Shown here: one piece after another, positions 1-25,907 of the stretch
How the letters are laid out: each line of letters begins with the position of its first letter
Position numbering within the stretch: position 1 is the first letter of the stretch
IMG/VR virus record: IMGVR_UViG_3300020020_000145
Coordinates: 1-26,485 of that record
Direction: 5' to 3' (one strand)
Length of the DNA stretch: 26,485 bases
Source of the DNA: a virus
Position numbers and translations under genes: made by a program
The notes under the pieces: generated by a model
Seen by the model: only the letters and a program-made list of their open reading frames with translations
Databases searched by the model: none
Told to the model about the DNA's origin: nothing

Positions 1-38
1 TCTTTTTCAGAAATTGGACTGAAATTACCTACAGGGCA
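1..38. other. Intergenic end of the window with a CCTACAGG motif copy
   Basis: This short stretch lies downstream of the stop codon of the 1243-residue gene. It contains AATTACCTACAGG at 23-35. The 13-mer is also present at 22812-22824 and 22840-22852, around the start of the large terminase gene. A weak inverted repeat (TTTCAG at 5-10, CTGAAA at 19-24) lies beside it; no T-run follows on either strand, so it is not called as a terminator. The next leftward gene must start outside the window. Confidence 0.5.
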
Positions 39-3000
39 CTATCCAGCGATTCTTCCCATTACGTCAGAAAAACTGGGTGGCCGCAAGGGCGAAACGTAAG
101 GTTCCTGGTAATCTGATTGGGGTTGTTGTTGAGCAATGGCAATTATCTCAGAAGGTGTTGCCGCCGTCGCAATTTTAACACCGCTCTGTCTATTCGTCAA
201 CACATAGTCAAGCGTTCCTTGAGCGTTAACTTCAGTGTCGATCCAGTACATATCCTGACCGTTATTGAATGCTCTCAAAGGAGCTTCAATGGAGCGGTCT
301 ACGTTGGTGTTATGTTGCTGTTCTTGTTGTCTCTCAGAAATCTTCCGGATAGGCAAACCAAGACCGGAGATTCTAGCTGTAGCTGGATTGGTGAATGCTT
401 CTCTGCCGACGTTTCCTGGAACACCTGGAATGTCTAGCCCGAATTCACTCTGGATATCTCCAGCCATCGGGATGTTGCTACCAACGTAATCCTGCCAGCT
501 CATATTTAGCGGCCGGTTGAAGTACAGATCCCTTCCTGTACCTAGTTCAATCGGAGCGGCCATTAGTGGGTTAAGTTGTGACAGAACTCCACGGAAGAAC
601 GACTCTGGATTCCTCTTTGTAAGTAGGTTTAGAGCGCCGAGGTTCATCATGTCCGACGACATATACCACGGTTCTTCTTCATCTGTGAGAAGTCCGAAGC
701 CCATGTCTTTGATGTATTGCGGAATGTTCAGTGCGTTGAAAGCATCTGCACCGGAGCCATCGTTGTACTCCATGAATCTTCCAGCCATGCTCAAGAACTG
801 GGGATTTGAGAACATCTGCTCTAGAAGCAACGGAGCGGCTTTCCGAACATAAGTCATGAACGGGAAAAACGTGGTCTTTAGCTGCTTCTCGAAAGGAGTG
901 AGTGCGCCGTAGTCGAACTTGTATTGGTTAACTCTCCAAAGAGCGGCGTCTTCTGCAAGCCGAGCAATCTCGTCAGCGGATTTGCCGCCCTTCTTAAAGA
1001 GAGCTTCCGCTTCATCAGTGTATGCAGTGACGAAGTGAACGAAACGGCCCATTTCTTCACGAATGTCAGAAGCCTTGCGCAAGTTGTTAGCGAAGTTTCT
1101 GCCAAGGTCTTTCGGAATTGAACCAGCAGTAAGGCTATTGTAGGTTCCTGTATCTACCTGGAAGAAGCCGCTGTCTGCGTTCTTGTGAAACAAATCCACC
1201 ATCTCGTCCCAGCTGTAGGATCTTCCGGCGATGTTAAAGACAGGGTTTCTACCTGCCTTATGTGCCAGGTACTTCTTGATGATGCGCGTATAATCGGCAG
1301 GGTTGACGTCATCCATCAAACCCATTGCGATATCGCCCATCATGTTACGCATATGGAAGCCAAGATTAGGTACGGTCTGTAGGTACTTAATCTGGTTGAT
1401 GACTTTGGAGAAGTTACGAGTGAAACGGCCCCCATCATTGGGTGACCACGAAAGCATGTCAGCAAAGTCCTCGAAGAATCCATTAACGCCCGTAGTTGAG
1501 CCTGCTCTGCCCGCACCTGTATACATGCTCTTTGGCAAGTAAACGGCTTCTCCGGCTTGTTGCGCCGCAGTTCTCATTGCTAGTGGAAGATCACTCTCAG
1601 GAACTCTGGTGACCTTAAGTCTAGTAGCTACGTCTGGGTCCAGAACTCTAGACATGAACGAGTAGTTGTCTAGAAGATCCTTTAGGAAAGCCTGCTTCGT
1701 GATATCACGCTGCATCTTCTCGAAGCGTCTAAAGAGGTTCTCCAGAGAGTGTTCCACGGGCTTGAGACCCATTTCTTTGGCCTTCGTAATGTCCCATTCT
1801 CCAGCGCCTCTGATATTGCCGTCTTTGAAAGAGGCTTTGCGACCGGCTTTGAATGCTTCACGATCTGCTCTAGAACCGCCCTTGTTGAAAAGGAAGTTAT
1901 AGTCGTCAGCATGATCGGTAACGTCACGAACGCCCCATGCTACTTCGTGACGGAAGATTTCATCTTGCTTGGTACGAATAAAGTCAATGATATCCTGAAT
2001 CTCAGGGTCAGTGACTACGTTGATGCCTCTATCCAGGAAGTCTTGAGCAGAATGGAACTTGCCTTCGCCGTACTTTCTACCGAAATCACGGAGTGTCTTG
2101 TTGAATTCCTCTAGTGTTGGAATTCCCGTGATTTTGCCAGAGCGTGCTCTAGTAGAGAACAGCGAAATGCGGTCAGGAAGTCTCTGTCCAATAGAAAGTC
2201 TATCGAACATATGAGAAGCGAAAGGACCACGCCCTTCAAACTTACGACCTACTCTCCTGTAGGCTCTACCCAACGTCTTCATTGGGATTTGCTTACCACC
2301 AACCCTTACACCGATGGTGGGGTAAGAGATGTTGTCAAAATTGGCCGCTAGTTCATCTCTGAATAGACCAACCTCGCCATCATAACGAGCGGTCATTTCT
2401 CCTAGGACTTCGTCCCAGAGTTTAGACTTCTGTAGATTCGGGTTCTTAAGGATAATGAGGTCATAGAACTCATCTAGAGAAGAACCAGGAGGAATGATCT
2501 GAGCAGCTTCCATTCTAGAAGCAAGTTCCCGCACGAATTCATCGAAATCAGGGTTACCTTGCATAGCCATATGGAAACGACGACGAGTGAAAGGACCGGC
2601 TTTTTGTACTGGGTTACGGAACCACTCTACGGCTCTAACCAATGGGCCAGAAAGTTCGCTCTTAAGAGTTTGCGCAGCATTCGATGCCGCAGTTTCACGG
2701 AAGACTCTTGGATGGAGACGAGTTCTTCTACTGCCTCCGCCACCGATATTTAGAACTGAATTGTCGTAGGCATCTGCAACAGACTGGTTGATGTTGTCCA
2801 TTACTCTCTGGCCATTCACAGTCCAGGGAGCGTTAATTTGTCTTCCAGCTACAGTCTGTGGAAGTCCGTGTAGAGCAGGTGCGCCCAGATTTGACTGTGT
2901 GTCCCTTGCGATGTTATCTGCGGCGTTGATTACTGTCTGCCGCATGTTGTCGATATTTGCTACTGCACCGGATTCGTCTAGAACCCTAAACCGAGCAGGA

Positions 3001-3770: not shown

Positions 3771-6366
3771 GTTTCACCTTCCTTTTAGCGTTACTACCGA
3801 GAGTACTGACAACTGACTTAACTGCTTTCGGACTCTTTACATCAGCAACATTGATTCGAGGCTGTTGAGTCTTGGCACTAGAAGTAAGTCTGTTAGTGGC
3901 TGCTTGCTTGTAGTTAGGTGTAGGCACCAAAGATTGAGTTCTTTGAAGAAGACTTGGAACAATACTTCTAGCCGTTCCAGGCGCACCGACTTGTCCTGCT
4001 CCAGTAGCAGCAAACGGATCAATGCTGTTAGGTACGAACTCCATTACTTCTTCTGCAGGAATTAGAGCAGCATCGAACATATTTTGGTTATTGTCAACGG
4101 CATCAATGTTAACGGCGGTGGTATTAGATGCTGCGTTATCTGCTGTAGCTTGCGTGATTGCCATATCCAAGTTGGAATTGAAACCACCAGTATTGAAAAT
4201 GTCAACCATAGCATTACCAGCATTAACAGTATTTTCTAGAGCGTCAAGTTCTTCTTGTGTAGGAATATCCTGTTCGTAATATTCCCCGAGTTCTGGATCA
4301 AAGCCGCTATCTTCGCCACCCATCAGATCAGCCTTCTCATCAGAGAAACCCTGCAAAGCAGTCATGAACGGCTCTGTATAGCCGCCGCCTCGGTTTTCTC
4401 TAACTCTACGAAGAAGATCGTCTTGGGTTACCTGATTGGTTGGGTTAGTGATGGTAGTACCAAAGATGTCCTGAACTCTACCAGCGCCTTGAATAGCCCT
4501 GACCATCATTGCTTGAGCAGCTTGTCTTTGCCTAGCAACTAGATCCAGAGCATCCTGTCGCTCTCTAGTTTCATTAGGAACAGTGGCGCTATTGTTAATG
4601 GCATAAGCGGCCGCTGCTTCGTTGGGAACATCAATACCAGACTGTTCAAGTGCCCTGTCTACGACCACTCTAGCTGATGGCAAGAGATTGGGGTAAACAT
4701 CTTCCCAGTAGGCTCTTTGAGCATTTGGATCTTGTGTTCCATTGAACATGTACTGACGAAGTTGTTCCATTGCAGGCATGTTGTAGTACGCCAAGCTGAA
4801 TTCTTCATCAGTCAGATCTTCAGGGGGAATGAACATATAGTCCATGTTGGCTGGGTTAGCCATTGTGTTGTGGTCTGGACTTAGATTGTCCCCGTTGTCA
4901 TAGAACCACTCTGCTTCGGGGGTGGGAAGTTGAGAGTCATCTAAAATGTAGGAATCTGTGGCATTCCCAGTCTGTGCCGGCGGCATGAAATCTTCGATAG
5001 AGTAGTCCGTTTGTGGGCGCCGTCTATTTCCGAAGAAATCAGAAATAGCTCCTTGTACTCCACCTGTAGGATTAAGGGTGTCTCCGTAACCCTGACGAAT
5101 ACGACCACCAAAGGTGTTTACGTCAGCAAAATCCGCGGCGAGTTGTTGTTGACCTTGACCGGGTACACCACCATAGTTTGCCGGATCATAGAAGTCAGAG
5201 TACACAGGATCGAACGCTTCATTGTGTGCCAAATCCTCAACACCCTGATAGTTCTGTATGTTTGCCTCAGGGTTTTCAATGAACGCCTCGTATTCATCTG
5301 TTTCTGGATCGTCGCCGGGCATCAATCCAACAGTGTTTAGGTAATTCTGAATCCATGTAGGCTCTGCCAAGCCACTATTGACAAGATCTGTCCAGGCACT
5401 GTTGTTGAGATTTACCTCTTGTTTGCCAAGAAGTTGTTCCTCGGCTTCTCTTACCTGTTCTTGCAAGTTACCAATGAACTCGTCAGAATCAGCTCCACCT
5501 GCGTCATTAGACATTGCAACGGCAGCCTCAAATAAAGCAGGATCAGCAGCCATTGCGGCTTCTATTGCTTCCATGAATCCGGGACGATTCAATTGAGCGT
5601 TGTCTCCAACAGTGCCTCTAGCCCACTTGTCAATGTTTAGTTGTGCGTCCTGATCGTCAAAGAAAGCATTTCCTCCTTCAGCAGTTCCATCCATACTTTC
5701 ATCATCGGAACCACCACCGCCACCTCTGCCGCCCCTTCTTCCGCCACCTCCACCACCGCCGCCTCCACCGCCACCAGCTTCAGCAGCCATCATTAATGGA
5801 ATGGAATCGAGGTAGCCGTTATAGAGTTCCTGTTGCTTAAGGAACCAAGAAAGATCGGTAGCTAGGTTTTGATCCCCAGTTTCACCCATTTGTTCCATTG
5901 CGCCCATGTAGGAAGCAATGGCAGGATCAGCCATCATTGCGGCGTAATTAGGATCATTGACGTCGAAGTTAGCACCTAGTAGATTCTGGATCCATTCAGT
6001 TCCCTGAGTATCAATATCTCCAACATACGTAGAGTAATTGGTCTTAATCTGGTCCATGAGTGCCGCAATTTCAGCAGCAGTCATTTCCTTCATTCCACTG
6101 ATAGCAGTAAGAGTAGGGTCTACCGCAGCTTCGGCAGTTCCTCCACCTACAGCTGGTGCCGCAGAAACTGATCCACCTGAATTAGAGCTAGGGGTAGCCA
6201 GACTTTGCATAGCAGTATTTAGGTTACCGCCGGTCTTTTCACTACCCGAATTACGCAGTTGCAGCACATTTCGTGCAAGATCTGCGATCTGTTGCTTCTG
6301 CGCCATTTCCTGGGCAGATTGCGAAACCGCCTTAACTGCGGCTCTAATGTCAAATGGATCAGGCAT
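3763..6366 (-). CDS. Large acidic virion-associated protein with a polyglycine tract (867 aa)
   Basis: I do not recognise a family. The protein is rich in Asp, Asn, Ala, Gln and Met. It has an uninterrupted Gly run followed by Gly/Arg at residues about 197-219, and ends in a Lys/Arg-rich tail. A loosely repeated module can be seen: WIQNLL followed by NDP and ADPA at about 127-155, a second ADPALFEAA version at about 272-284, and WIQNYL followed by DDPETDEYEAFIENPE at about 338-370. The ATG overlaps the stop of the 245-residue gene (TAATG) and the gene runs 8 bases into the 1243-residue gene, so the three are probably translated together. An internal virion (ejection) protein or head-tail accessory protein is the best inference from position. 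No catalytic motif is visible. Confidence 0.5.
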   Translation of the reverse strand: MPDPFDIRAAVKAVSQSAQEMAQKQQIADLARNVLQLRNSGSEKTGGNLNTAMQSLATPSSNSGGSVSAAPAVGGGTAEAAVDPTLTAISGMKEMTAAEIAALMDQIKTNYSTYVGDIDTQGTEWIQNLLGANFDVNDPNYAAMMADPAIASYMGAMEQMGETGDQNLATDLSWFLKQQELYNGYLDSIPLMMAAEAGGGGGGGGGGGGRRGGRGGGGGSDDESMDGTAEGGNAFFDDQDAQLNIDKWARGTVGDNAQLNRPGFMEAIEAAMAADPALFEAAVAMSNDAGGADSDEFIGNLQEQVREAEEQLLGKQEVNLNNSAWTDLVNSGLAEPTWIQNYLNTVGLMPGDDPETDEYEAFIENPEANIQNYQGVEDLAHNEAFDPVYSDFYDPANYGGVPGQGQQQLAADFADVNTFGGRIRQGYGDTLNPTGGVQGAISDFFGNRRRPQTDYSIEDFMPPAQTGNATDSYILDDSQLPTPEAEWFYDNGDNLSPDHNTMANPANMDYMFIPPEDLTDEEFSLAYYNMPAMEQLRQYMFNGTQDPNAQRAYWEDVYPNLLPSARVVVDRALEQSGIDVPNEAAAAYAINNSATVPNETRERQDALDLVARQRQAAQAMMVRAIQGAGRVQDIFGTTITNPTNQVTQDDLLRRVRENRGGGYTEPFMTALQGFSDEKADLMGGEDSGFDPELGEYYEQDIPTQEELDALENTVNAGNAMVDIFNTGGFNSNLDMAITQATADNAASNTTAVNIDAVDNNQNMFDAALIPAEEVMEFVPNSIDPFAATGAGQVGAPGTARSIVPSLLQRTQSLVPTPNYKQAATNRLTSSAKTQQPRINVADVKSPKAVKSVVSTLGSNAKRKVKLG

Positions 6367-7103
6367 TATTGAGTCCTAGAGAATCTCTGCTGTGCGGCTC
6401 GTCTGAGAAGTTCGGGTGTAATTGAAAGTCCACCTACAGGACCCCTTGCTCTTTTTGCTCTCTGCAACATTCCGATGGGGCCAACTACGTTGTAATTTCT
6501 ACCGGCCGTTGTGAATGAACCGCCGCCAGAACCTGCACCTGAATTACCGGCCGTTTGCTGTGGTGTAGCTGTTGCAGGAGTATCAGTAGTAGGAGCGGTT
6601 ACTTGTGCAGCAGTTCCTGGGGCAACAATTGCACCGGAAGGGCCACCGGTATTAGTAGCCGTTCTACCAGTAGAGGTAGGAGATGCAAGGTTGCCAGAAC
6701 GCAAAGCGTTTCTAGCCGCATTCATCAATCCTACGTTCTTGTTGTTGACAAGACTAGGATTGATCTTACCGATCTGGTTAACACTGCCAGAAACAGCAGG
6801 CATGTTCGCAGCAGCCTTGGTTGAATAAGGCGCTGCGTATCTAGCGTCTGCAACTCCCTTAGGAGAAGTAGGAATTCCCTTTGGGCCAGAGAATCCCTGA
6901 TTCGTCTTTGGAGCAGCGACCTTTCTAGGGGCTTCTGCATAGGGAGTAGGACCAATTCTGCTAGGACTTCCACCAGCAGATGGCGTACTCTTATTCAGAG
7001 TTCTAGGAGCACTCTTCTTTGTGCTCTGCGTTCTTGACGCAGGCTTACCAGTGTTCTTCTTGGAAATGGATCTAAGAGAACCCTTTGAGACTTTACTAGC
7101 CAT
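6366..7103 (-). CDS. Basic low-complexity virion-associated protein (245 aa)
   Basis: The protein is Ser/Thr/Pro/Ala/Gly-rich and strongly basic at both ends, with Lys/Arg-dense residues 1-65 and an RAKRARGP stretch near the C-terminus. It has no predicted membrane segment and no recognisable domain. The composition suggests a disordered, DNA-binding or internal-head protein; this is inference. Its ATG overlaps the previous stop (TGATG) and its own stop overlaps the start of the 867-residue gene (TAATG), so it belongs to the same translation-coupled set. It reads intact, without frameshift. Confidence 0.5.
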   Translation of the reverse strand: MASKVSKGSLRSISKKNTGKPASRTQSTKKSAPRTLNKSTPSAGGSPSRIGPTPYAEAPRKVAAPKTNQGFSGPKGIPTSPKGVADARYAAPYSTKAAANMPAVSGSVNQIGKINPSLVNNKNVGLMNAARNALRSGNLASPTSTGRTATNTGGPSGAIVAPGTAAQVTAPTTDTPATATPQQTAGNSGAGSGGGSFTTAGRNYNVVGPIGMLQRAKRARGPVGGLSITPELLRRAAQQRFSRTQ

Positions 7104-8289: not shown

Positions 8290-9027
8290 CTAGACAGCGA
8301 TACGCCCAGGGATATTGATAAGATCCCCAGGTGATAGCGGCTTGTTATTGTTCGCTGCTTGAAGCTCAGCTACTCTTGAATTGGTAGCCTTGCCATCTTC
8401 ATAGACCTTTTCACAGATCTTCCAATAAGAATCTCCTGCGACAACTTTGTACAACAAAACGTGGCCTCCTGTAGGCGGCGGAATAACGGGCGGGGGAGTA
8501 GTGGATTGATATGGCTGAAGGAATTCAGACCATCTAGCAATAATCAAAGCGCCAGGACAAGATGTGGCTGCATCAGGCATTTGTCTATGCGGCCGCTGAT
8601 CTGGATTCGCTCGGAGAATGCCGTTCTGAATTAGGTACTTATCTCTGAGCCATCTCCACTTATCAATCTGCATTGACGTAGGAGCTTCTCTAGTACCGTT
8701 AAGAAACAGGATTCCTACTGCTTCACTGTTTTCCCCAGCAGAGTGAGCAGCTTGGTACCAACCAGCATACTCATAAATTACGTTAGTGTCCTTCTGGTCA
8801 ATAACGTAGTTGTACTCAAACGGAGCAGAAGCAGGACGGTTTCTAGCCGCAGCATCAATATTGCGAATAGCTTGCGGCGTATCTCTTGTAGCGAAGATTA
8901 CATCAACACCAGTGTAGTGGCAGGTGTAATACTGCTCGTTAACTAACCGTGGACGTGGAGTTCCACCAGAACTTGTAACCGTAGCTGGCAAGCCAATGGC
9001 AGTTCTGGGGATAATTTCGTAGCTCAT
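8290..9027 (-). CDS. Endolysin: N-acetylmuramoyl-L-alanine amidase with LysM domain
   Basis: It cleaves the lactyl-peptide amide bond of peptidoglycan at lysis. Residues about 30-170 form a PGRP/T7-lysozyme-type amidase domain: CHYTG gives zinc ligand His37, Tyr74 is a likely catalytic residue, HRQMP gives His147 and SCPG gives Cys157. The position two before the Cys is Thr rather than the Lys of T7 lysozyme, as in many family members. A Pro-rich linker (about 176-187) leads to a C-terminal LysM domain from about residue 193 (YKVVAGDSYWKI to INIPG), which binds cell-wall glycan. No signal peptide is seen, so export needs the holin. The ATG overlaps the stop of a 52-residue gene (ATGA). The catalytic plus wall-binding layout is typical of phages of Gram-positive hosts. 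Confidence 0.9.
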   Translation of the reverse strand: MSYEIIPRTAIGLPATVTSSGGTPRPRLVNEQYYTCHYTGVDVIFATRDTPQAIRNIDAAARNRPASAPFEYNYVIDQKDTNVIYEYAGWYQAAHSAGENSEAVGILFLNGTREAPTSMQIDKWRWLRDKYLIQNGILRANPDQRPHRQMPDAATSCPGALIIARWSEFLQPYQSTTPPPVIPPPTGGHVLLYKVVAGDSYWKICEKVYEDGKATNSRVAELQAANNNKPLSPGDLINIPGRIAV

Positions 9028-9823: not shown

Positions 9824-11505
9824 CTTACTCTCTCATACTCAGCACGTTCTAGTTGCTGTGCTACAGCAAGATCCTTGATCTTGATTTGCGACTGATCTGT
9901 TTGTAGCTGACAACGAAGATGGAACGAAGCTCGTCGATAGTGGAAATCAGCACGAATTTGGATGAGGTTAGATCCAAGACCTACAGTAAAGTCTTGAGTA
10001 ATCGTAGGTCTGACTTCCGTTGCCACAGACGTAGTAGCGTCAAGACTCCAGCTAGTTGTAATGTCGTGTTCAGAATCGGAAGTAAATAGCTCAAGAATGC
10101 CACGCTTAGCCATTTTGAAAGCATACTGGTTACCTCCGTCAAAGTGCTTGGTTTGCAAGTACAATTCGATGAAACTACTTACCGTAGAGAGAGCAATCCT
10201 GTACTCATCATGCGCTCCGTCAAATACTAGCAACTGAATAGCCGCTAGTTTGGGTGCCGCAAGAGTAGAGTTGGATGTGATTCCCATAGCGTAAATAACC
10301 GGGTCCGGGTTTAGATACGTTGGGATCTTATTCGTAGTTGAAACGATTCCTACTAGCGAAAAGTCAGTATCAGGCTTGTCTACGTTACCCACGTCCCAGT
10401 TTGTCCAGCAAATGGGATCGAGCTTGGAATAAAACACGTTACTAAACGCATTGTCTACGTTAGCAACGTCTCCGGAAGCGGTTAGCTTGATTACGGAGAC
10501 AATCATACCATCCTCGTAGTGAGTGATGGTGTGCATTCTAGTTCCAGTAGACAAGAAGAACGAATCCGAAATCATCTTACTCAAATCAGAGCATTTCAGA
10601 CCGTTCGTTCCCCAAACGCCTTCAGTAGTGACGTAGTAGATGATTCCCTTGGATTCAAAGGCACATTGATGCGATGTGCAGATAGCCTTCGAGTCCAAAA
10701 TACGGAAAATCCACGATGCAGGCTCTCCTTCGACCAAAAGCGTGAAAAGTCCGTTAGTTGTGAAAATGCAGAGTTTATTACCTACAGGAACAACTTTAAG
10801 GATCTTACTAGCGCCGCCGGGTCCAACCACTGGAACAAAGTTGGTGGCTGCTGCCCACGTTTCAGGAAGGCCGCCGACTGTTGGGATGTTTGTATAGTAC
10901 AGCTTGTTTCCGAGGAAAGCCCAAAGACGATCTTTGAAGGAAATCAGACCTTCCATGCTGCTAATTGTGCCCGATGCAACAGCACTGTAGGTAACTGAGT
11001 CAGTTGCCCAGTTAATTGCCGTTACTTTTTGGACACCGGTAGCAAGCAGGAAGTAAATCGTACCGTCGTACTGGCAAATCCCACGAGAAGCAGTAGGAAT
11101 TGAAACGGAAGCAAAACCATTGTTGGCATCATGAGTTCCCTCGGCTCTAATTAGGTTTAATGTGGCTCCGATTGCAGTACCGGAGGTTTGTGCGTCGTAT
11201 CCAGATGAAGACCAAATAAATGCAGGCTTAGAGCTATCTCCGCCCCAAGGAGCAATTTCGTAAAAGGCGTCAATTGAGCTAGCAGGGCTAGGTGCTGCCG
11301 CTACGTAACTCCAACTAACCCAATCTACTGAAGGCTTCTTCAATCCTGGCCGATTCTCCAAGGAATCGCCAGTAGCGATCATATTATAGCAGGATACAGA
11401 GTATCCATCGGGAATGTTGGTTGATAGTTCTGACGTATAGAGTCCCTGACCCAAGGCGATCTTGTAGTATTCCTCTGCGTAGACGTCGGATCGGGAATCA
11501 GCCAT
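9820..11505 (-). CDS. Tail nozzle / tubular protein B-like (561 aa)
   Basis: The protein is beta-rich and repetitive. An N-terminal region includes an NRPGLKKPS stretch, like the segment that opens many podovirus nozzle (T7 gp12-like) and stabilisation proteins. It is followed by blade-like repeats with the pattern of a beta-propeller (for example CQYDGTIYFLLATG, FKDRLWAFLGNKLYY, VVPVGNKLCIFTTNGLF). It follows the head-tail adaptor candidate, as in podoviruses where adaptor and nozzle genes are adjacent. The ATG at 11505 overlaps the preceding stop (TGATG) and is preferred to a TTG three bases earlier. Family membership is from pattern and position only. Confidence 0.6.
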   Translation of the reverse strand: MADSRSDVYAEEYYKIALGQGLYTSELSTNIPDGYSVSCYNMIATGDSLENRPGLKKPSVDWVSWSYVAAAPSPASSIDAFYEIAPWGGDSSKPAFIWSSSGYDAQTSGTAIGATLNLIRAEGTHDANNGFASVSIPTASRGICQYDGTIYFLLATGVQKVTAINWATDSVTYSAVASGTISSMEGLISFKDRLWAFLGNKLYYTNIPTVGGLPETWAAATNFVPVVGPGGASKILKVVPVGNKLCIFTTNGLFTLLVEGEPASWIFRILDSKAICTSHQCAFESKGIIYYVTTEGVWGTNGLKCSDLSKMISDSFFLSTGTRMHTITHYEDGMIVSVIKLTASGDVANVDNAFSNVFYSKLDPICWTNWDVGNVDKPDTDFSLVGIVSTTNKIPTYLNPDPVIYAMGITSNSTLAAPKLAAIQLLVFDGAHDEYRIALSTVSSFIELYLQTKHFDGGNQYAFKMAKRGILELFTSDSEHDITTSWSLDATTSVATEVRPTITQDFTVGLGSNLIQIRADFHYRRASFHLRCQLQTDQSQIKIKDLAVAQQLERAEYERVR

Positions 11506-14545: not shown

Positions 14546-15273
14546 TAGATTGCCGCCAATGCAATTGCCCAAGAGGCGTATTCGTCTGCTGCCAGTGGAG
14601 TCAGGTTAACAGATGGAACATCAACACCTGCCGTTGTGGGAGAGTTGTAGGTTCCAGACCATCTGTCATTGTTAGTGGCGGTACTCAACTGCTGTGTAAA
14701 TCCTGTAGGGTTCTGTGTACCGTAGCCTGAACCTGAAGCGCCATCTCTAGCTGTTCCAACAATAACCAATGAGTTATTAGAAAGAGAAGCTCCAGGTAGT
14801 ACCGGAGTAGCGTGCGGAGTAACTGCCGTAGCTTCTGAAAAGTTGGCAATGTGGTCAATAGGGTTAGATGTACTAACTCCCCGCACGGCAAAGGCGTGCG
14901 TATATCCAGTCTCCGTTGATGGAGAATAGATAGCAGCACAAGTGTATATCTGAGTAACGGCAGAAACTTCTCCTGCATCAACCCAGTGATACAAATATGA
15001 AGTACCTAACGCAGAACCTACGTTATATTCTCCACCAGTACCTAGAATGTTTACCCATCCCGAAACATCAGCAGTGATTGCCATAGTAGTTTGTGTCGAG
15101 CTAACCAGAAGAATGAAATCATTCAGTGCTGGAGTGTAGCTTGAGAAACCACCTACTGCATCAGAAGCTGAAGTAATGGTGCCAGTTCCGACTGCAATTA
15201 GAGACGGCTGAGATCCTCCGCCCGGCGGGGCAGTAGGAAATCTGTAGGGGTTAATCAGATTGATGACAGCCAT
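14545..15273 (-). CDS. Minor tail / adhesin-like protein (242 aa)
   Basis: The N-terminus holds INPYRF followed by a Pro/Gly linker, a short segment I recall at the start of many minor tail proteins in phages of Gram-positive hosts. The rest (about residues 25-242) is a beta-rich, Thr/Ser/Gly-rich domain ending in ASWAIALAAI, like a jelly-roll. The ATG overlaps the stop of the previous fibre gene (TAATG), and its stop overlaps the spike start. A second surface-binding protein of the fibre cassette is likely. Confidence 0.55.
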   Translation of the reverse strand: MAVINLINPYRFPTAPPGGGSQPSLIAVGTGTITSASDAVGGFSSYTPALNDFILLVSSTQTTMAITADVSGWVNILGTGGEYNVGSALGTSYLYHWVDAGEVSAVTQIYTCAAIYSPSTETGYTHAFAVRGVSTSNPIDHIANFSEATAVTPHATPVLPGASLSNNSLVIVGTARDGASGSGYGTQNPTGFTQQLSTATNNDRWSGTYNSPTTAGVDVPSVNLTPLAADEYASWAIALAAI

Positions 15274-15995
15274 TACGACGTCCTGATTACATACAGAGTA
15301 ACTTTAAGGCCAGCGGCTCCTACTCCTGCTCCGTCGATATCGAATCTAATCGAGGCATCGTCTGCAATTGCGTTATCAGAAATAACGGCAGCAGCTGCGG
15401 CAGTAGTTGAAGTCAACTCTCCCTGGTCGATCGTCAATGGAGTGGAGAAGATTGTGGTCGTTCCATCATTGACGTCAATTGTCACAGCACCTGTAGAAGA
15501 CGCTGTTGTAAGAGAAGCACGAACTGCTGTGATAGTGAACGCAAAAGGCGCACGAACTGTGAGCTTTCCGTTCCCTGTAGTAAGTGCCGTAGTTTCATCA
15601 GAGAGCGCAAACGCCATCGGCTCTACTGATCTGTCGTACAGAACTACGTCATTGACACCCTTGTTAGTTGGCACGCCAAGTGTAGGCGTGTTTGGAATCC
15701 AGAACACTGTATCTGCGCCAGCAGTACGTGCGTCTGAAATGTTGGAATACGGTTGAACGACAACCGTAGGAGGAAGAACAATTGTGGCCAGAGCGTATTC
15801 CTCTGATACGTTTACTCCCAACCAAGTACCGGTCTGTCCTGTAGGATCTGGTAAACCTACAGGTTCTCCCCCACCGCCAGAACCAATAGGGTCGCCGTTA
15901 ATAGTAATCGAAGTACCATTCGGCGTTTTGATGTCCAGGTCCTTAAGGAGTGTTACTTCCTCAAGTTCATAACAAATGATCTCTTCTTCATCCAC
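15273..15995 (-). CDS. Fibre-like protein with a common phage C-terminal beta domain (240 aa)
   Basis: The C-terminal 120 residues (from FALSDETTALTTGNGKLTV, through FTITAVRASLTTAS, to AGLKVTLYVIR) match a beta-sandwich that I recall as widespread at the ends of phage fibre or virion surface proteins. The N-terminal 40 residues are acidic, followed by a Gly-rich linker. The start is GTG with AAGGAAAG upstream; an ATG four bases further is out of frame. It is the first gene after the capsid terminator and opens a cassette of four fibre-type genes. An inverted repeat (CCTGTAGG at 15838-15845, CCTACAGG at 15856-15863) lies inside it. Confidence 0.65.
   Translation of the reverse strand: MDEEEIICYELEEVTLLKDLDIKTPNGTSITINGDPIGSGGGGEPVGLPDPTGQTGTWLGVNVSEEYALATIVLPPTVVVQPYSNISDARTAGADTVFWIPNTPTLGVPTNKGVNDVVLYDRSVEPMAFALSDETTALTTGNGKLTVRAPFAFTITAVRASLTTASSTGAVTIDVNDGTTTIFSTPLTIDQGELTSTTAAAAAVISDNAIADDASIRFDIDGAGVGAAGLKVTLYVIRTS
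15838..15863. repeat. Inverted pair of the CCTACAGG octamer inside a fibre gene
   Basis: CCTGTAGG (15838-15845) and CCTACAGG (15856-15863) are exact reverse complements separated by 10 bases, so they could form an 8-bp stem-loop. They are two of the 16 octamer copies in the window. Confidence 0.6.
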
Positions 15996-16069: not shown

Positions 16070-17269
16070 TTAGACGGTCTCAGTAACGTTGGTCATCTTG
16101 CCATGCGAGTTACGCTGATGAGTACCCATCTGCCAGTACTGCTTCATCAAAGCTTCCCAGGCATCGTAATCACGCACCCACTTAAGGACTGATCCATCCT
16201 TGTCCTGCCAGTGCCATTCCTTATCCCGCCAGATCTTGATATCCGGCTCTGAAATGAAGAAGGCGTGCTTTGCAGGACAATCCACGTCATCAACAAGAGG
16301 AAGATCCTTGCCGCCGTACATGAACGAGAGTCCAATTAGGCCACCAGCAAAGGACTTCGGATCGTTGTAACGACGCAGAGACATCATCAGGTTCTGATAC
16401 GTCCGGCGGAAACCGAGAGACGTAAAGACAACGGTCGGAAGGTTTCCACCTGCACGACGAATGTCGTCCATTACCTTGCCCATTGCCATTTCGGTCAGGG
16501 TTGTCGTAACCGAGTCTTCAACTGACTTCCACTTTGAAGTGGTGGTTGGGTCCAACTGGTGAAGTGCACCGGTTGAATCAACGATCTTGTTAAGACCGTA
16601 AGGCTCGTTGTTGAAGTTTCCGGTACGAGAAATGTAGGAACCGATGATGGTTCCTGCAACTGCCGCAGAAACCGTAAAGACGGTATCCGAGGTAATTCCC
16701 GTAATCGTAACCCCAGTACCACCCGAAACTGCGGTTCCTGAACCGTTGGTGATATCAATTACCATTCCTTCTTCAAGGAGCTGGGTTGTATCCACCGTGA
16801 TCGTGGTACCAGTAGAAGCGGCCGTGGCTTCTGCTCTGGTTCCAGGAATTCCGTCAATGTGACCGTATGCGATCTGGTTCTCATCACGACGAATGTCATC
16901 CTTGAGGCCATCCATTTCGATGTCCATTGCGGATGAGAAAGCTTGGCGATCGGAATCTGCGAGGTCAATTAGTTGACCCGTTAGATGGACTCGACCGTAT
17001 CCGTAGCGCAGAGTTTCCTGCGCTGCCTTGAGTCCCTGCCTACCGGCGGGCGCAAGTTGGGTGCTTTCTGCGCGGTATGAAATACCAGCGTTACGAGTAA
17101 CGCGAACCGGGAAAGTTACGTACTTACCGCCGACTGCGTTAGTACCCGTTCCTTCCGCCGTTCTTTCGAGTCGCTTGATCGTGACTCGTTCGTCGTTCAA
17201 CTGATCGTTGATGTTACCCTCATAGATTTCCTTGAGGATAGCATTGACCGTGGTCAGGGTTGCAGACAT
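16070..17269 (-). CDS. Major capsid protein, HK97-like fold (399 aa)
   Basis: Size, position after portal and scaffold, and the pattern of segments fit an HK97-fold capsid protein. The N-terminal arm and beta hairpin are about residues 1-60. A helix-rich spine follows (QETLRYGYGRVHLTGQLIDL, then FSSAMDIEMDGLKDDIRRDE). The C-terminal domain carries VVFTSLGFRRTYQNLMMSLR and GGLIGLSFMYGGKDLPLVDD. Residues about 150-216 are a Thr/Ser/Gly/Val-rich beta insertion that could be a surface or insertion domain. The ATG directly follows the scaffold stop (TAAATG) with AGAAGGAAA upstream, and a strong hairpin terminator follows the gene. No protease domain is fused and no cleavage site is evident. Confidence 0.85.
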   Translation of the reverse strand: MSATLTTVNAILKEIYEGNINDQLNDERVTIKRLERTAEGTGTNAVGGKYVTFPVRVTRNAGISYRAESTQLAPAGRQGLKAAQETLRYGYGRVHLTGQLIDLADSDRQAFSSAMDIEMDGLKDDIRRDENQIAYGHIDGIPGTRAEATAASTGTTITVDTTQLLEEGMVIDITNGSGTAVSGGTGVTITGITSDTVFTVSAAVAGTIIGSYISRTGNFNNEPYGLNKIVDSTGALHQLDPTTTSKWKSVEDSVTTTLTEMAMGKVMDDIRRAGGNLPTVVFTSLGFRRTYQNLMMSLRRYNDPKSFAGGLIGLSFMYGGKDLPLVDDVDCPAKHAFFISEPDIKIWRDKEWHWQDKDGSVLKWVRDYDAWEALMKQYWQMGTHQRNSHGKMTNVTETV

Positions 17270-18058
17270 TTAACCATTTCCTTCTAGGAGTTGAGCAACG
17301 AGAGCTTTTCTGTCGTTGCCACGTAGTTTCTTGGCGTCGATTTGCTGGGAAGGAACTCCACCCTGACCCCCCAATGTCATTGGGGCTTGTCTTGGAGCTG
17401 CCTTTTGTCCACCAATTTTCGTCGTCAATTTGTTCCACTCTTGCAGAGCTTTTTGTGGGTCACCGTGAACTGCGAGTCGTGCGATGACGTAATCATCCTC
17501 GAAGTCACCGACCTTATTATGCATCGCTGCGAGCAGATTGTCAAGTTGCCTATTTTCGGCCTCTTGTTGAGCAGCCGTTTCTTGCTGATCGCGCCATTCT
17601 CTGAGTTGTTCTACCTCAGATTCGACGTTCTGTCGCCAAACCTCAGTCTGATCTGGCGGCTCGTTCCCACCTTCGAAATCATTCGACATTTGCTTTTCTT
17701 CTTCCTCAATCTGTAGTTCCAGCATTCGTACCAATTCTTCTTCAAAGCTATCTCCGTACTGCTCTGCGAAAGCATCGTACATTGCCTTGAAAACTTGCTC
17801 GGGGTTGTCATTGAAGACGCTTCCGAACTGATGTAGTTGTTGAAGTTGTTCCAGAGGACCAAGAGCTTCGTAGCCCTTTAGTTTCTCCGCATAGGATTGG
17901 AACTTCTTTGTAGCCCCTGCATCCCACTTATCAACATACTTCTCAAGAATTGGACGATCGTTAGGATCTACGTCTGCGAGAAAGACGTTCTTGAGACTTG
18001 TATCCTGTTGTGGTTCTGGGGCTGGGCTTTCGCCTCCACCAAACTCAACGGGTTCCAT
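17270..18058 (-). CDS. Scaffolding protein (262 aa)
   Basis: A highly acidic, Gln/Glu-rich, mostly helical protein between portal and capsid genes, the standard place for a podovirus assembly scaffold. A coiled-coil segment covers about residues 105-180 (ELVRMLELQIEEEEKQ, then VESEVEQLREWRDQQETAAQ). The C-terminus is basic (KKLRGNDRKALVAQLLEGNG), as in scaffolds that bind the inside of the shell through a positively charged end. The ATG overlaps the portal stop (TAATG). No serine-protease motif is seen, so it is a scaffold rather than a maturation protease. Confidence 0.75.
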   Translation of the reverse strand: MEPVEFGGGESPAPEPQQDTSLKNVFLADVDPNDRPILEKYVDKWDAGATKKFQSYAEKLKGYEALGPLEQLQQLHQFGSVFNDNPEQVFKAMYDAFAEQYGDSFEEELVRMLELQIEEEEKQMSNDFEGGNEPPDQTEVWRQNVESEVEQLREWRDQQETAAQQEAENRQLDNLLAAMHNKVGDFEDDYVIARLAVHGDPQKALQEWNKLTTKIGGQKAAPRQAPMTLGGQGGVPSQQIDAKKLRGNDRKALVAQLLEGNG

Positions 18059-20319
18059 TAAACCATAGCCTCTTCTGTTTCGGGGGGAGGCATAGCCATT
18101 TCCTGCTCTGCTCCCTGTTGCTGAATTTCATTCACTCTGAGTGCATTGCTTTCCTTGACTAGTTCGCCCTTATGTTCATCAACGTGATCTTGAATGATCT
18201 GTTGAATCTCTGGAGGCAACATTTCAAATTCCTGGGTCTTTTGGAAGTTCTGGTGTTCTTCGATGTGGATTTGGTGGTTATCGAATGGGTTAATTGTGAC
18301 TTCGTAAGTCTCTGGTTGACCAGTAGCTTCATCAATGATGGGAGAACCGAGTTCGTCTCTACGAATATCAGTCTTGTTTTGTGGTTGCAACATCGCCATT
18401 GGATCCATCATCGGATTTGGCGCACCCATAGAAGGATCAATACCAGGCATTCCACCAGGAGTACCAGGAGGCATACCCATAGAAGGCATTTGTGGAGGCG
18501 GTGCATTAACGTCAATTTTTGTCAGCCTCTGTCCTTGCGCCATCATTACGTTCTCTCTCATGGCATGATTGTTATCAAGCATAAGATCGTCGTAGAGCTT
18601 GTTCGTCTCGTTCATTCGCAGATACTTGAGAGCCTTTTCAAGAGGCAAGCCTCTATCCATAAGCTCAACAATGAATGCCTGCTTTGCGGCCTCTGATCTA
18701 GGAGCCATTGATCCAGCAACGACTCTGAAGTCAGTGGATGGGTTTAGATCCTCGGCAGTAAATGCACGAATCTCCAGCATCTGGTTTTCAGAAGTCATCT
18801 TTACGATGCGCTCTGGCTCCCAGAACTGATGAACATTGCTCAGTGCTTGTACGCCGATCTCTTGAACGGCGTTCTCGATTGATGTGATGGAATAGTGGAG
18901 GATGGAGTCATTTTCTTCGGACAAGTAGGCAATAGCCGATGCGGCTTCAACTCCTGGTGGAGTTCTACCCTTCGATACCTCGAACTGAGAGGAGATATCG
19001 TCCATGTCTCGAATAATGACTTCAAGCTCGTTTCCAATCGAGGTTGAGATTTCTGGCTGTTCGATAGGCTTCGGCGGTTCAAAACCCATGTTAATGGGAA
19101 GAAGCAAACGAGGCTTGCCGTTGAAACGACGAGGATCAAATGCACCAGCAACGTATGAATACTGCGGCTGTGACGTAATGTTCCTGTGTTCCAACATGAT
19201 GGAACGAGTACGGTTGTACTCTTTCTGAGAACTAATCAGGTGCTTGACGATTGAGTCCCCATACCACATTCCTGTAGGGATATGGTCGATCTTAACGTAG
19301 GGGAACCTACGGTGCTTATAGGGGTACTCATGATCGTAGCCGGTAACACCCTTAGAAACTATTTCTTCCCCTTCACCAGTCTCGGGGGTAGTTTCTGGTT
19401 CGGAACCCAAATCACCTACAGGAGGTTCCATTCCGAGCATTTCTGCAATCTCCGGAGGAATTCCACCCGGAGCGCCTTCAATGGGCGATTGTTCCGGTAA
19501 CGCCTCATCAACGTAGAGCATTTGTCCGTCGCCGTAAATGAAGTGTGCTCCATTTGGGAACTGCTTGTTCGGCATGACGTGAACTTCTTTGATGTAACAA
19601 AGTTTGGTTGCGTCATTCGTCCTGGCTTCACCAAGAACGCCGAGAGAAGTTAGGAAACGTGTGTCATTGAAAGCATCGTTACTTTCTGTCTTTGGCTCAA
19701 GCTCTACTCCGAACATATTCTGCGCTACTTCAGGAGACATTGTCTCAGACTGAATAGTGTAGGGCTGGTCTTCCATCTCTGTGGCAAGCAGGTTAGGAAC
19801 GAACAAGTGGAACGGAGTAATCGGCGAGAAGTCCATGCGGCCAGGAAGGCCGTCCCTCTCAATAGCGCCGCTGTTGTAAGAGGTCTTTAGATAGCCGGTG
19901 CCGCAAAGAATCGCCCAGAACGTTGCTAGTGATCTTTTCTTGTTGAAGTACTTTGTATCAAGCAAGAATTCGGCAATCGTCTCACCCGCCATTGCGGCAA
20001 GACGGTCGCTTTCCTCACTACTCTTGGGAACACAGAAGAATTGCGGCTCTTCCTTTGTGAGCTTGGTTAGTTCGGTACGAACGATGCGAATGATTCTGTT
20101 CGCAGTGTGTCGAACTCTCCAGGAATCTTTTGGCTTTTCCTCAGTGAGACTGAATACGCCGTTAGTCTTAACGACACGTACCCATTGGCGTCCGAAGAAG
20201 AACGCCATATTATACGACCAATCGCGCTCGAAGCGTTGGCGTGCTTGTTGACAGGCTCTTAACTTCCCATCCCATTCATCCATCAACTTTGAATCAGCAG
20301 AGCCTGTCACAAGCATCAT
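18058..20319 (-). CDS. Portal protein (753 aa)
   Basis: The dodecameric head vertex through which DNA enters and leaves. Its length is typical of large podovirus portals. Visible features are the N-terminal helical region with WSYNMAFFFGRQWV, the segment ANRIIRIVRTELTKLTKEEP, a clip/wing region with WAILCGTGYLKTSYN, an acidic Pro-rich insertion at about 265-310, and a stem region with ISSQFEVSKGRTPPGVEAAS followed by ALKYLRMNE. The C-terminal part is Met/Pro/Gly/Gln-rich, like a barrel or disordered tail. It follows the terminase genes and precedes the scaffold with a one-base overlap. Two adjacent ATGs are possible starts and no strong ribosome site distinguishes them. Confidence 0.85.
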   Translation of the reverse strand: MMLVTGSADSKLMDEWDGKLRACQQARQRFERDWSYNMAFFFGRQWVRVVKTNGVFSLTEEKPKDSWRVRHTANRIIRIVRTELTKLTKEEPQFFCVPKSSEESDRLAAMAGETIAEFLLDTKYFNKKRSLATFWAILCGTGYLKTSYNSGAIERDGLPGRMDFSPITPFHLFVPNLLATEMEDQPYTIQSETMSPEVAQNMFGVELEPKTESNDAFNDTRFLTSLGVLGEARTNDATKLCYIKEVHVMPNKQFPNGAHFIYGDGQMLYVDEALPEQSPIEGAPGGIPPEIAEMLGMEPPVGDLGSEPETTPETGEGEEIVSKGVTGYDHEYPYKHRRFPYVKIDHIPTGMWYGDSIVKHLISSQKEYNRTRSIMLEHRNITSQPQYSYVAGAFDPRRFNGKPRLLLPINMGFEPPKPIEQPEISTSIGNELEVIIRDMDDISSQFEVSKGRTPPGVEAASAIAYLSEENDSILHYSITSIENAVQEIGVQALSNVHQFWEPERIVKMTSENQMLEIRAFTAEDLNPSTDFRVVAGSMAPRSEAAKQAFIVELMDRGLPLEKALKYLRMNETNKLYDDLMLDNNHAMRENVMMAQGQRLTKIDVNAPPPQMPSMGMPPGTPGGMPGIDPSMGAPNPMMDPMAMLQPQNKTDIRRDELGSPIIDEATGQPETYEVTINPFDNHQIHIEEHQNFQKTQEFEMLPPEIQQIIQDHVDEHKGELVKESNALRVNEIQQQGAEQEMAMPPPETEEAMV

Positions 20320-21057: not shown

Positions 21058-21307
21058 TGATGTTCTCGTTTACGTACTTGGCTTCGATGAACTGTGCGAC
21101 TCTTTGAGAACCTACACGCCGTAGGTTTTCCCAACAATCACGACAGAGAATTAAGGCGCCCTCATAGCCAGGGCCGCCGTAGATGACGGGGTTGAAATGA
21201 AGCTCGAGGTTAATTCCGAAATCAATGAAGAAAACGGATCTAACCGTGCCACAGTAGATGCACTTGTTGGGCGGGAAGTTTGGAGTTTCTGATACGTAGA
21301 TGTTCAT
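20891..21307 (-). CDS. Small zinc-ribbon-like protein (138 aa)
   Basis: Two CxxC pairs (Cys16/Cys19 in KCIYCG, Cys55/Cys58 in LCRDCW) could bind one zinc ion, a layout common in small nucleic-acid-binding or structural phage proteins. The C-terminal 55 residues are acidic and Ser/Asp/Ala-rich and share their DNA with the 81-residue coiled-coil ORF. The ATG at 21307 overlaps the terminase stop (TAATG) and is preferred to an ATG six bases earlier inside the terminase end. It may assist packaging, since it follows the large terminase gene, but no family can be named. Confidence 0.6.
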   Translation of the reverse strand: MNIYVSETPNFPPNKCIYCGTVRSVFFIDFGINLELHFNPVIYGGPGYEGALILCRDCWENLRRVGSQRVAQFIEAKYVNENINGSTIGSSPEANPAAADDDRAPELDDPEPTSSDSESDSNGSDETVANFAGFFSKH

Positions 21308-22809
21308 TACCATTCAATTCCGAGCATGGCGTCCACCTTCTCGGGGTTGTGGAACATCCGCTCATAGTCTATGTCGATGGGACCGACCTCTGGCAAATCG
21401 AAAGGATTGCCGAGCTTAAATTCCTCCTCTGTTTCTAGAGCAGGTCTGGACATGACTCCGTATCGGAGCGCATCCATGCAGTGATCGTTCTTTTTTAGCG
21501 GCGTGTCCTTCGGGTTTCTCCTTTGATTCATCTTAGTGCTAGCGAACTTGTCATAGCGATATTCATCCAGTTCCTTTAGAGTCTTTTCACAACGCTCTGA
21601 GATGAACAGTAGCTTTGAAGCGAACAGATTCTGAACACGAATAATTCCTGCTCCGACGTTGTTGTTCCCTAGTCCAATACCTACACCATGTTCCTGATAC
21701 TCAGACTGTACGGAAGTTCCGGTTACGGCGTTCTTGTTCTGGATAGATGGATCGCCTACACAATAGACTGTCTTGATTCCTAGCTGTTCTCTATGTGCAA
21801 GATACTGAGCCGCAAGATCCTTTACTAGTTTCTTGCTCTCGTACATCTCATCGAAGACGATTATCTTTCCGGCGTCTGTGTAGGCACAGAAAAGAAAAAC
21901 GGTCGGATTTGCCCACCCGTGGTCCATACAGGTAAAGTAACCCATCCCCTTGGTATAGGCGGCCAAGTTAGGGACGATGTCTGGAATGACGTTACCACCA
22001 TTTTGATAGAGGCCCCTGTCGAATGCTCCTGCATAGATCAATCCTGTTCTTGTGATGAATTGGCCGCTTCTTCTCGCCGCTTTTTCTGAATCAGATAGGC
22101 CACGAGTAATTCTGTCGAGCGCCTCGACTTTAATGTGCGGGTTTTCCTCAGTATTGACTGTGAGGACAAAGATCGAGTCGTCTCCGTTGAGCCACGGTTC
22201 ATAGATCCTGTCCTTTGTCCACGACATCTCAATCAGCGGCGTCATAGCGATCCAGTAGTCACCATCTGTATCTACTAGACGCATCAGACATTCGTTGTAG
22301 ATTTCCTCTGGTGGTTCCTCGTCGAAGTAAACCCAATGGCGACTAGTTCCTGCGAACTTCTCTACTTCCTGTTCATAAGACATGAACTCTACGAACGACT
22401 TGTTAGTTAGTGTAAGTGTTCTGGCTTGCTTGTCATATGAGTCTTCGAAGGAGCCGTTCTTTAACAGGCTGGGTGGAACCCATCGCATGAATTCCGGTAG
22501 GACGATCTTCTTGATTCCGTCTTCGATATCCACCGCAACAACTCGTCCTCTAGATGGGACGGGGAGATCGTTTCTGTAGGGGTGTTTTCCAGTGGCTCTG
22601 AAGACAGCTTCACAAACCGCGCCAACGGTCTTTCCTGAACGGTTTCCCCCGATGTAGAGTTTTTCCTTGGCTGTTGATTCATGGAATTTCTCCTGAGAAG
22701 GATGAGGAACATAACTGTCTATACCAGGGTGCATTGCGGCCTTGGTTAAAGCCTGGGCAAAGATATCCTGAATAGTGACTGGATTGAGGTCAAAGTTCTT
22801 CCGGGGCAT
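21307..22809 (-). CDS. terL: Terminase large subunit
   Basis: The packaging motor: an ATPase that translocates DNA into the prohead, fused to a nuclease that cuts concatemers. The N-terminal ATPase has Walker A GGNRSGKT (Lys60, Thr61) and Walker B WVYFDEE (Asp163, Glu164). The C-terminal RNase H-like nuclease has candidate metal-binding acidic residues at Asp296 (CMDHGWANP), Asp353 (VGDPSIQN) and Asp446 (HCMDALRYG). The length of 500 residues is normal. The ATG follows the probable small subunit closely and has the octamer-containing CCTGTAGGTAATTAA directly upstream, where AGGT may act as ribosome site. The first gene downstream overlaps its stop. Confidence 0.95.
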   Translation of the reverse strand: MPRKNFDLNPVTIQDIFAQALTKAAMHPGIDSYVPHPSQEKFHESTAKEKLYIGGNRSGKTVGAVCEAVFRATGKHPYRNDLPVPSRGRVVAVDIEDGIKKIVLPEFMRWVPPSLLKNGSFEDSYDKQARTLTLTNKSFVEFMSYEQEVEKFAGTSRHWVYFDEEPPEEIYNECLMRLVDTDGDYWIAMTPLIEMSWTKDRIYEPWLNGDDSIFVLTVNTEENPHIKVEALDRITRGLSDSEKAARRSGQFITRTGLIYAGAFDRGLYQNGGNVIPDIVPNLAAYTKGMGYFTCMDHGWANPTVFLFCAYTDAGKIIVFDEMYESKKLVKDLAAQYLAHREQLGIKTVYCVGDPSIQNKNAVTGTSVQSEYQEHGVGIGLGNNNVGAGIIRVQNLFASKLLFISERCEKTLKELDEYRYDKFASTKMNQRRNPKDTPLKKNDHCMDALRYGVMSRPALETEEEFKLGNPFDLPEVGPIDIDYERMFHNPEKVDAMLGIEW

Positions 22810-22810
22810 T

Positions 22811-22852
22811 TAATTACCTACAGGTCCATATCTAGTTCTAATTACCTACAGG
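22811..22852 (-). repeat. Two 14-bp direct repeats at the terminase gene junction
   Basis: TAATTACCTACAGG occurs at 22811-22824 and again at 22839-22852, 28 bases apart. The first copy lies in the gap just upstream of the large terminase ATG and the second forms the last codons of the preceding gene (Pro-Val-Gly-Asn-stop). The last 13 bases recur at 23-35, and ATTACCTACAGG recurs at 10777-10788. Confidence 0.7.
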
Positions 22853-24722: not shown

Positions 24723-24734
24723 CCTCTAGGTAGG

Positions 24735-24808: not shown

Positions 24809-24982
24809 ATGTATACACAAACCGACTACTACGCACGCCAGCGTGAACTTGATCGAGAGAATCGGGAGATTCTAAACGAGATTCGGGTGGCCGAACTTCC
24901 GGCTGATCGCCTAGCGATTCACGTCAAGTTCAATCATGACGCCGATCGTTGCCGGTGTTTCACATTGGCAGGTGTCAAGTGA
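24809..24982 (+). CDS. Small unknown protein (57 aa)
   Basis: The first of three chained rightward small genes. The product begins MYTQTDYYARQRELDREN and ends FTLAGVK. Residues about 8-30 are a charged helix, and Cys48 and Cys50 lie near the C-terminus. GAAAG upstream of the ATG is the likely ribosome site. The TGA stop overlaps the next start (GTGA), which strongly supports both. No family is recognised. Confidence 0.6.
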   Translation: MYTQTDYYARQRELDRENREILNEIRVAELPADRLAIHVKFNHDADRCRCFTLAGVK

Positions 24983-25203: not shown

Positions 25204-25412
25204 ACGATCAGCAGATCTGCTCAGTCAACAATCTTGTCTATCGAGAGACAGGCAAGCACTGGCGTGCAATCGAAAGGTTGCAACGCAAGATCGAAACGCA
25301 CCAGTACAGCGTGCCTTTCGAGTGGGTAGCGAAGTGGGAAAGCCAAATCGGCTACCACGAGCGGATGGTCGAGCACTACAACTCGATCCCACTCGATCAG
25401 CAGCGGTTCTAA
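25200..25412 (+). CDS. Small unknown helical protein (70 aa)
   Basis: The third gene of the chain; its ATG overlaps the previous stop (ATGA). Predicted helical, with WRAIERLQRKIE and WVAKWESQIGYHERMVEHYN. The charged amphipathic helices could form a coiled coil or a dimer. A 10-bp hairpin with a GAAA loop follows 14 bases after the stop. No known motif. Confidence 0.55.
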   Translation: MNDQQICSVNNLVYRETGKHWRAIERLQRKIETHQYSVPFEWVAKWESQIGYHERMVEHYNSIPLDQQRF

Positions 25413-25421
25413 CCGGCGAAA

Positions 25422-25454
25422 GACTAGCCCCTACCCGAAAGGGTAGGGGCAGTC
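25422..25454 (+). terminator. GAAA-loop hairpin after the small-gene chain
   Basis: The stem GCCCCTACCC (25427-25436) / GGGTAGGGGC (25441-25450) with loop GAAA is extended by GACT (25422-25425) / AGTC (25451-25454) around one bulged base. No T-run follows, so it may be a weak intrinsic terminator or an RNA-stabilising 3' end. A second small hairpin (GACCC-GTA-GGGTC, 25466-25478) lies right after it. Confidence 0.6.
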
Positions 25455-25907
25455 GCAATCGAGCGGACCCGTAGGGTCGCAATTTGCCCCCTAAAAATTT
25501 CCCAAGAGAAGAGGCAGGGCTTCGCCACGAAGAATTGAAAGAGCCGGCTCCTCACTACGTTCGGATGCCGAAGATCGCTTCGCTTAAGAATAGGGCCTCG
25601 CTACGCTCGGACGTAATGAGGCAGGGCGAATGTGTCGCCCGCACTGAGGAAGCATACGAAGAACTGATTGCCTCGCTACGCTCGGCTGGAGATAGGACTT
25701 CGCTTCGCTCAGACGAAGAGTTGAAAGAAGAAGAAGTGGGTCGCAATTTATTAACTCACGAATCATTTCCCAATTAGTACCTCTCCTTATTAATTTCCAA
25801 TTAGTTTTTTCGGCGGCCACTCTTACTTACCTACAGGGCCGTTCATTCCTATTACACCAATTAACTCGTATCATAACTAAGGTTTGCACAAGGTGCAGCG
25901 TCGCAAT
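25452..25907 (+). repeat. Four GTCGCAAT octamers, two inside an exact 12-mer
   Basis: GTCGCAAT occurs at 25452-25459, 25476-25483, 25740-25747 and 25900-25907, all in one orientation. The second and third are part of the exact 12-mer GGGTCGCAATTT (25474-25485 and 25738-25749), which brackets the CTCGCTACGCTCGG repeats. No gene explains them. Confidence 0.6.
25551..25713 (+). repeat. Degenerate CTCGCTACGCTCGG-type repeats
   Basis: Clear copies start at 25551 (CTCACTACGTTCGGA), 25597 (CTCGCTACGCTCGGA), 25672 (CTCGCTACGCTCGGC) and 25699 (TTCGCTTCGCTCAGA), with a weaker one at 25574. The first three positions are 23 bases apart. A hairpin GGGCGA-ATGTG-TCGCCC (25624-25640) lies among them. They make spurious repeat-bearing ORFs on both strands. 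Confidence 0.65.

Follow-up and report, generated by a model that had tools for sequence, protein, structure and literature searches.

The motif CTGTAGG, which is strongly over-represented in the window (the whole 26,485-base IMG/VR virus fragment analysed here, comprising the structural block of a podovirus with terminase, P22-like portal, capsid, and endolysin genes), is probably the site that an AEP primase encoded by the phage recognises on its template, with initiation sites spread over the entire genome. We directly observed the enrichment of the motif, its sharpness, its specificity to phages, and the way it varies with the primase, as well as the AEP fold of that protein.

No octamer in the window was more enriched than CCTACAGG/CCTGTAGG, with 16 copies versus about one expected (0.68 after dinucleotide shuffling, 0.8–1.0 under Markov models of order 2 and 3; Table 1). 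These were the same 16 copies, at the same positions, that had been counted by eye in a preliminary description of the fragment, and the Markov check proposed there bore out the excess. Thirteen copies were coding and three noncoding (28, 22817, and 25830). Most of the coding copies shared one frame: PVG was encoded by CCTGTAGGT in six of six cases and PTG by CCTACAGG in six of six, giving 12 of 12 with motif codons, with the copy at 2256 outside the P-V/T-G frame. Our recount of codon use, noncoding copies, and the single out-of-frame copy matched the earlier one exactly. Shuffling synonymous codons within genes yielded 2.0 ± 1.4 coding copies (maximum eight in 2000 trials), shuffling them across the block yielded 1.5 (maximum seven), and shuffling with codon junctions preserved yielded 1.8 (maximum six), versus 13 observed. 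Codon usage was thus ruled out as the cause, and the earlier judgement that codon preference is too weak an explanation withstood the shuffling proposed for its refutation.

The core unit of the motif was the 7-mer CTGTAGG, with 24 copies in the window (3.8 expected) and 279 over 15 related contigs (34 expected). Each of its single-base variants occurred in these 15 contigs at background level, 0.1–1.6 times expectation. The octamer is this core preceded by a favoured 5' C, present in 167 of the 279 pooled copies. The copies lay mostly within genes and in both orientations inside one unidirectional gene block. Their spacing in the window was no more even than random, and both strands were occupied with no clear orientation switch. 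Three DnaA-box-like TTATCCACA copies were located in the noncoding right end of the window (26042, 26073, and 26323), possibly an origin or DnaA-binding region.

Table 1. Motif copies and marker genes in the window. The strand of a motif copy is the one that reads CTGTAGG 5' to 3'.
Feature	Positions	Strand	Basis
Octamer, CCTGTAGG copy, intergenic	28..35	-	motif count
7-mer core CTGTAGG without 5' C	1213..1219	+	motif count
7-mer core CTGTAGG	1377..1383	+	motif count
Octamer CCTGTAGG, coding, other frame	2256..2263	+	motif count
Octamer, coding	5063..5070	+	motif count
7-mer core CTGTAGG	6146..6152	-	motif count
Octamer, coding	6433..6440	-	motif count
Octamer, coding	8468..8475	+	motif count
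7-mer core CTGTAGG	9980..9986	-	motif count
Octamer, coding	10781..10788	-	motif count
7-mer core CTGTAGG	10985..10991	+	motif count
7-mer core CTGTAGG	13047..13053	-	motif count
Octamer, coding	13362..13369	-	motif count
Octamer, coding	14091..14098	+	motif count
Octamer, coding	14702..14709	+	motif count
7-mer core CTGTAGG	15242..15248	+	motif count
Octamer, coding	15838..15845	+	motif count
Octamer, coding	15856..15863	-	motif count
Major capsid protein (query for relatives)	16070..17269	-	phrog_14242 3e-83
P22-like portal protein	18058..20319	-	PF16510, phrog_156
Octamer, coding (portal)	19271..19278	+	motif count
Octamer, coding (portal)	19415..19422	-	motif count
Large terminase subunit (query for relatives)	21307..22809	-	PF03237, phrog_2
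7-mer core CTGTAGG (TerL)	22574..22580	+	motif count
Octamer, intergenic	22817..22824	-	motif count
Octamer, 3' end of 22838-23803 gene	22845..22852	-	motif count
Octamer, noncoding	25830..25837	-	motif count

The closest relatives of the window were viral contigs with a terminase or capsid protein 60–73% identical; named relatives were Manatee Spring podovirus MW202795, Microbacterium phage Shocker, Arthrobacter phage Jasmine, and Cellulosimicrobium phage DS1. The octamer was enriched in the close soil relatives. There were 28 octamers in MW202795 and 30 in the near-complete 46.8-kb contig G001, which carried 58 copies of CTGTAGG on both strands. Related phages had earlier been named as a place where the proposal could fail; those with 60–73% identical TerL or MCP were enriched, whereas distant terminase or capsid relatives showed no octamer enrichment, very short contigs and L041 being too small or copy-poor to judge. 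Within aligned genes, position was kept in 24 of 68 site-by-relative comparisons, which suggests that motif density, rather than the place of individual sites, is what has been retained.

Other lineages carried other words. The word was CTGTGGG in Jasmine and Casserole (47 copies in Jasmine, 3.3 expected), CTGTAAAG in Shocker (45 versus 0.13 expected, 350-fold), and CTGTCGC in DS1 (47 versus 7.4 expected), and each of these phages was enriched solely in its own word. The word thus differs among lineages yet retains its shape. Sister spellings seemed depleted: GTGTGG in Jasmine (1 versus 10), CTGTAG in Muddy (3 versus 13), and CTGTGG in McGalleon (10 versus 32). A second enriched word, TACCCTAA, was found genome-wide in Shocker (L061; 15 copies versus 0.09 expected).

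The motif belongs to the phage and not to the host. The Arthrobacter strain from which Jasmine was isolated also yielded Korravirus and Marthavirus phages, and these showed no CTGTGGG enrichment. In the 3.3-Mb Solirubrobacterales MAG G013, a putative host whose assignment is uncertain, one related phage contig held 12 of the 20 octamers, and the motif was not enriched beyond that contig. A host-wide motif was ruled out by the same-host phages and the MAG count. A phage contig of the Solirubrobacterales MAG JACDAP01 (L059) encodes a capsid protein 73% identical, a weak hint at the host.

We then selected phages solely by homology to the primase-helicase of Jasmine. These were Muddy, Cozz, CherryonLim, Serbin, McGalleon, and PMBT14, which have unrelated virions and represent five host genera, including Serratia and Pseudomonas. 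GTGTGG (or GTGTGGCC) was the top or a near-top word in all six. Single-protein scans with the G001 or Muddy primase matched only their own contigs, so alignment queries were needed; these retrieved about 125 viral loci with the primase-helicase. In a blind k-mer ranking, a [CG]TGTNN hexamer was first in 41 of 91 dereplicated primase loci (chance 1/65, 1.5%; binomial 3e-49) and within the top three in 58, compared to first in none of 17 controls. The spelling classes GTGTG, CTGTG, CTGTA, and CTGTC grouped by branch of the primase tree, with 23 changes versus 58.7 when shuffled. Two environmental loci (L209 and L211) were enriched for CTGTGCT/CTGTGC. There was no clear word in about 21 of 101 primase loci, low-GC clade included; in this clade (L175, L176, L179–L182), the primase is present with no clear CTGT/GTGTGG word, and the site may be shorter or different. 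Further strong repeated words were seen in the primase-bearing loci L125, L153/L154, and L169: TGACCGTGGC, TGTCAAGG/CCTTGAC, and AAGCGTA.

The motif was also missing from three phages that lack the primase domain. A Streptomyces contig keeps homologues of TerL, portal, MCP, SNF2 helicase, exonuclease, resolvase, and AAA protein as well as the helicase half of the primase-helicase; neither the primase half, nor a PolI homologue, nor the motif was found in it. This is contig 11 of Streptomyces griseosporeus JCM 4766 (46.4 kb; L060/L076+L078+L079), apparently a whole podovirus relative. Korravirus has homologues of PolI and the helicase and weak homologues of the AAA protein and exonuclease, and ctLwi270 has a PolI homologue; both lacked a primase homologue and the motif. 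By gene content, these three are natural knock-outs of the primase domain, although few and distant. Terminase, portal, and capsid proteins were ruled out as the motif reader, as the motif occurs in phages with unrelated virions but not in the Streptomyces relative. Each complete phage examined that bears the motif had a PolI gene along with the primase, and these phages carry genes for a PD-(D/E)XK exonuclease, an AAA ATPase, and an SNF2 helicase beside the primase. The window encodes no primase-helicase; judging from its relatives, the primase gene of its own virus would sit on the missing part of the genome. The preliminary description had suggested that selection may act directly on the DNA, via a DNA-binding protein of the phage, and this part was supported. 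Its candidates (repressor, recombination, packaging, and segregation proteins) were not, as the motif tracks a replication protein.

The primase-helicase family corresponds to PHROG 3123 (phrog_3123), the function of which is listed as unknown in PHROGs. Pfam domain RepB_primase was matched above cutoff in Muddy (5e-11), Cozz, and McGalleon, and AAA_25 was matched as well. Foldseek matches of the full-length model were dominated by the helicase, and the N-terminal 299 residues were therefore folded alone (AF2 model, pLDDT 91). The four best PDB fold matches of this model were all Prim-Pol/AEP proteins: RSF1010 RepB' (3h20, 7e-9, and 3h25), PrimPol of cyanophage S-2L (9e-9), and CAPP. RepB' was also the best PDB match of the primase half by sequence (E 0.004), while the helicase half matched RepA (1g8y, E = 2e-16) and AAA_25 (RecA-type, RepA/DnaB). 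An acidic [D/E]xD motif was conserved, as was a D farther along the sequence, and S109 was invariant, with the His (sxH) absent from some members. In the AF2 model, helices 208–295 form a bundle downstream of the catalytic domain, at the place of PriCT/HBD; the RepB' match spans this region, for which Pfam returned no PriCT hit. The modelled fold thus marks the N-terminus as an AEP (RepB'-type) primase.

We propose that this AEP (RepB'-like) primase, which has a helical-bundle domain and is joined to a RepA/DnaB-like helicase, would read 5'-CT·GTAGG-3' on a single-stranded template. The helical bundle would grip GTAGG, and the primer would begin opposite CT (pppA-G). About one site per kb kept over both strands would allow a strand to start anywhere, e.g., for lagging-strand fragments, and the variable 3' half (GTAGG, GTGGG, GTCGC, GTAAAG, or GTGG) would shift together with the primase lineage. 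Complete genomes carried 36–80 motif copies on both strands, spaced about 0.6–1.2 kb apart, which fits the usual scale of lagging-strand fragments. Sites were distributed more evenly than at random in Muddy, McGalleon, CherryonLim, and Cozz, and marginally so in Jasmine. Binding, priming, the start position, lagging-strand use, and the presence of the primase gene in the window's own virus are what we infer from these observations.

The words share one layout: CT·GTGGG, CT·GTAGG, CT·GTCGC, CT·GTAAAG, GT·GTGG, and CT·GTGCT (L211/L209). In the pRN1 primase ORF904, GTG in the template 5'-CTGTGCTCA is bound by the helical bundle, and pppA-dG is synthesised as primer opposite the CT immediately 5' of GTG (PMC11009956; PMC8076596); NrS-1 Prim-Pol recognises GTGA and GTGG (PMC8718748). 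Since the layout is that of the pRN1 and NrS-1 words, primase start sites are the simplest account of the motif. The bundle of ORF904 reads its motif (CT·GTGCTCA) with the primer opposite the two 5' bases, and the pRN1 word is echoed in the CTGTGCT/CTGTGC of the environmental phages above. Unlike pRN1, an archaeal plasmid with an SF3 helicase, the phages have a longer, lineage-specific, genome-wide word and a RepA-like helicase. RSF1010, with its RepB' primase (ssiA/ssiB) and RepA, gave the best fold match to the primase half and the best sequence matches to both halves, but these are separate proteins with only two initiation sites, whereas the phages have a single fusion and dozens of sites. 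GTGG of NrS-1 is contained in GTGTGG and CTGTGGG; NrS-1 Prim-Pol differs in being the main replicative polymerase, and we saw no genome-wide enrichment described for it. Seven to eight bases are fixed here, versus the three to five needed by characterised AEP primases (except for one 8-base NrS-1 site), and we found no biochemical precedent for a site with GTA or GTC instead of GTG. The GTA/GTC variants and the long word are predictions rather than precedents.

The main rival explanation, which we regard as unlikely, is that the motif marks localized single-strand nicks made in virion DNA by a phage nickase, as in phages tf and Rembedalsseter. The nick motifs of Pseudomonas phage tf (TACT/RTGMC, one strand; PMC3517423) and Rembedalsseter (WACTRTGAC; PMC11780129) hold CT·GTG and are short dispersed words in podoviruses of similar size (PMC3517423; PMC11780129). 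Like our motif, those of tf, T5, and phiKMV are phage-specific and dispersed over the genome, but they occupy one strand in few copies (13–14 for the tf type) and have a different consensus; here, every complete genome has dozens of copies on both strands. A nickase would also offer no reason for the motif to track the primase across unrelated virions. The tf/Rembedalsseter motif TACT/RTGMC contains CT·GTGA, the word of NrS-1 Prim-Pol, and a link between nicking and priming is possible. A Chi-like recombination signal read by a phage Cas4/RecB-like exonuclease or helicase could be imagined from the exonuclease, AAA ATPase, and SNF2 helicase genes beside the primase. We give this little credence: homologues of all three are present in the motif-free Streptomyces contig and, the AAA protein and exonuclease weakly, in motif-free Korravirus. 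Chi sites and HIP1 are similarly short and highly iterated but host-determined, whereas the word here is set by phage lineage, and a host Chi is unsupported because Korravirus and Marthavirus phages of the same host lack the motif.

It is just as improbable that the reader is another member of the replication module, such as DNA polymerase I or an SSB, with the primase merely co-travelling. PolI accompanies the primase in every motif-bearing complete phage examined, but its homologues in Korravirus and ctLwi270 (only about 23–27% identical) occur with neither primase nor motif, and it is AEP primases that are known to read this kind of word; we know of no sequence specificity of PolI. Repressor (stoperator), packaging, or partition sites are highly improbable. 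Dispersed repressor sites are known in mycobacteriophage L5, yet the copies here are mostly intragenic and lie in both orientations within a unidirectional gene block (13 of 16 coding in the window), unlike the transcription-aligned, mostly intergenic placement of stoperators, and the motif tracks the primase and not virion or terminase genes. Finally, a bias in codon use or mutation, or a motif iterated throughout the host genome as HIP1 is, might be suspected from the single frame of most coding copies in the window, but has next to no chance of being correct, being contradicted by the codon shuffles, the single-substitution profile, the same-host control, and the MAG.

We consider it likely that primase start sites form a genome-wide priming code in a family of tailed phages: dozens of 6–8-base starts, about one per kb, would be selected despite turnover, even within genes, and their spelling would differ by lineage, co-evolving with the DNA-reading domain of the AEP primase-helicase. 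We found no prior description of genome-wide primase sites in phages in the open-access literature, and novelty is claimed provisionally. If true, these words would form a class of highly iterated functional motifs apart from Chi, uptake, partition, and HIP1 words, and a map of discontinuous replication would be inscribed in the genome. The requirement of the primase for a long word would be strong enough to mould the sequence of the entire genome, down to the choice of codons. A function would be assigned to PHROG 3123, and the specificity of about a hundred uncharacterised phage primases, including that of Muddy, a phage used in phage therapy, would be readable from genome sequence. The natural series GTGG, GTAGG, GTCGC, GTAAAG, and GTGCT would offer a route to the rules by which the helical bundle recognises single-stranded DNA.
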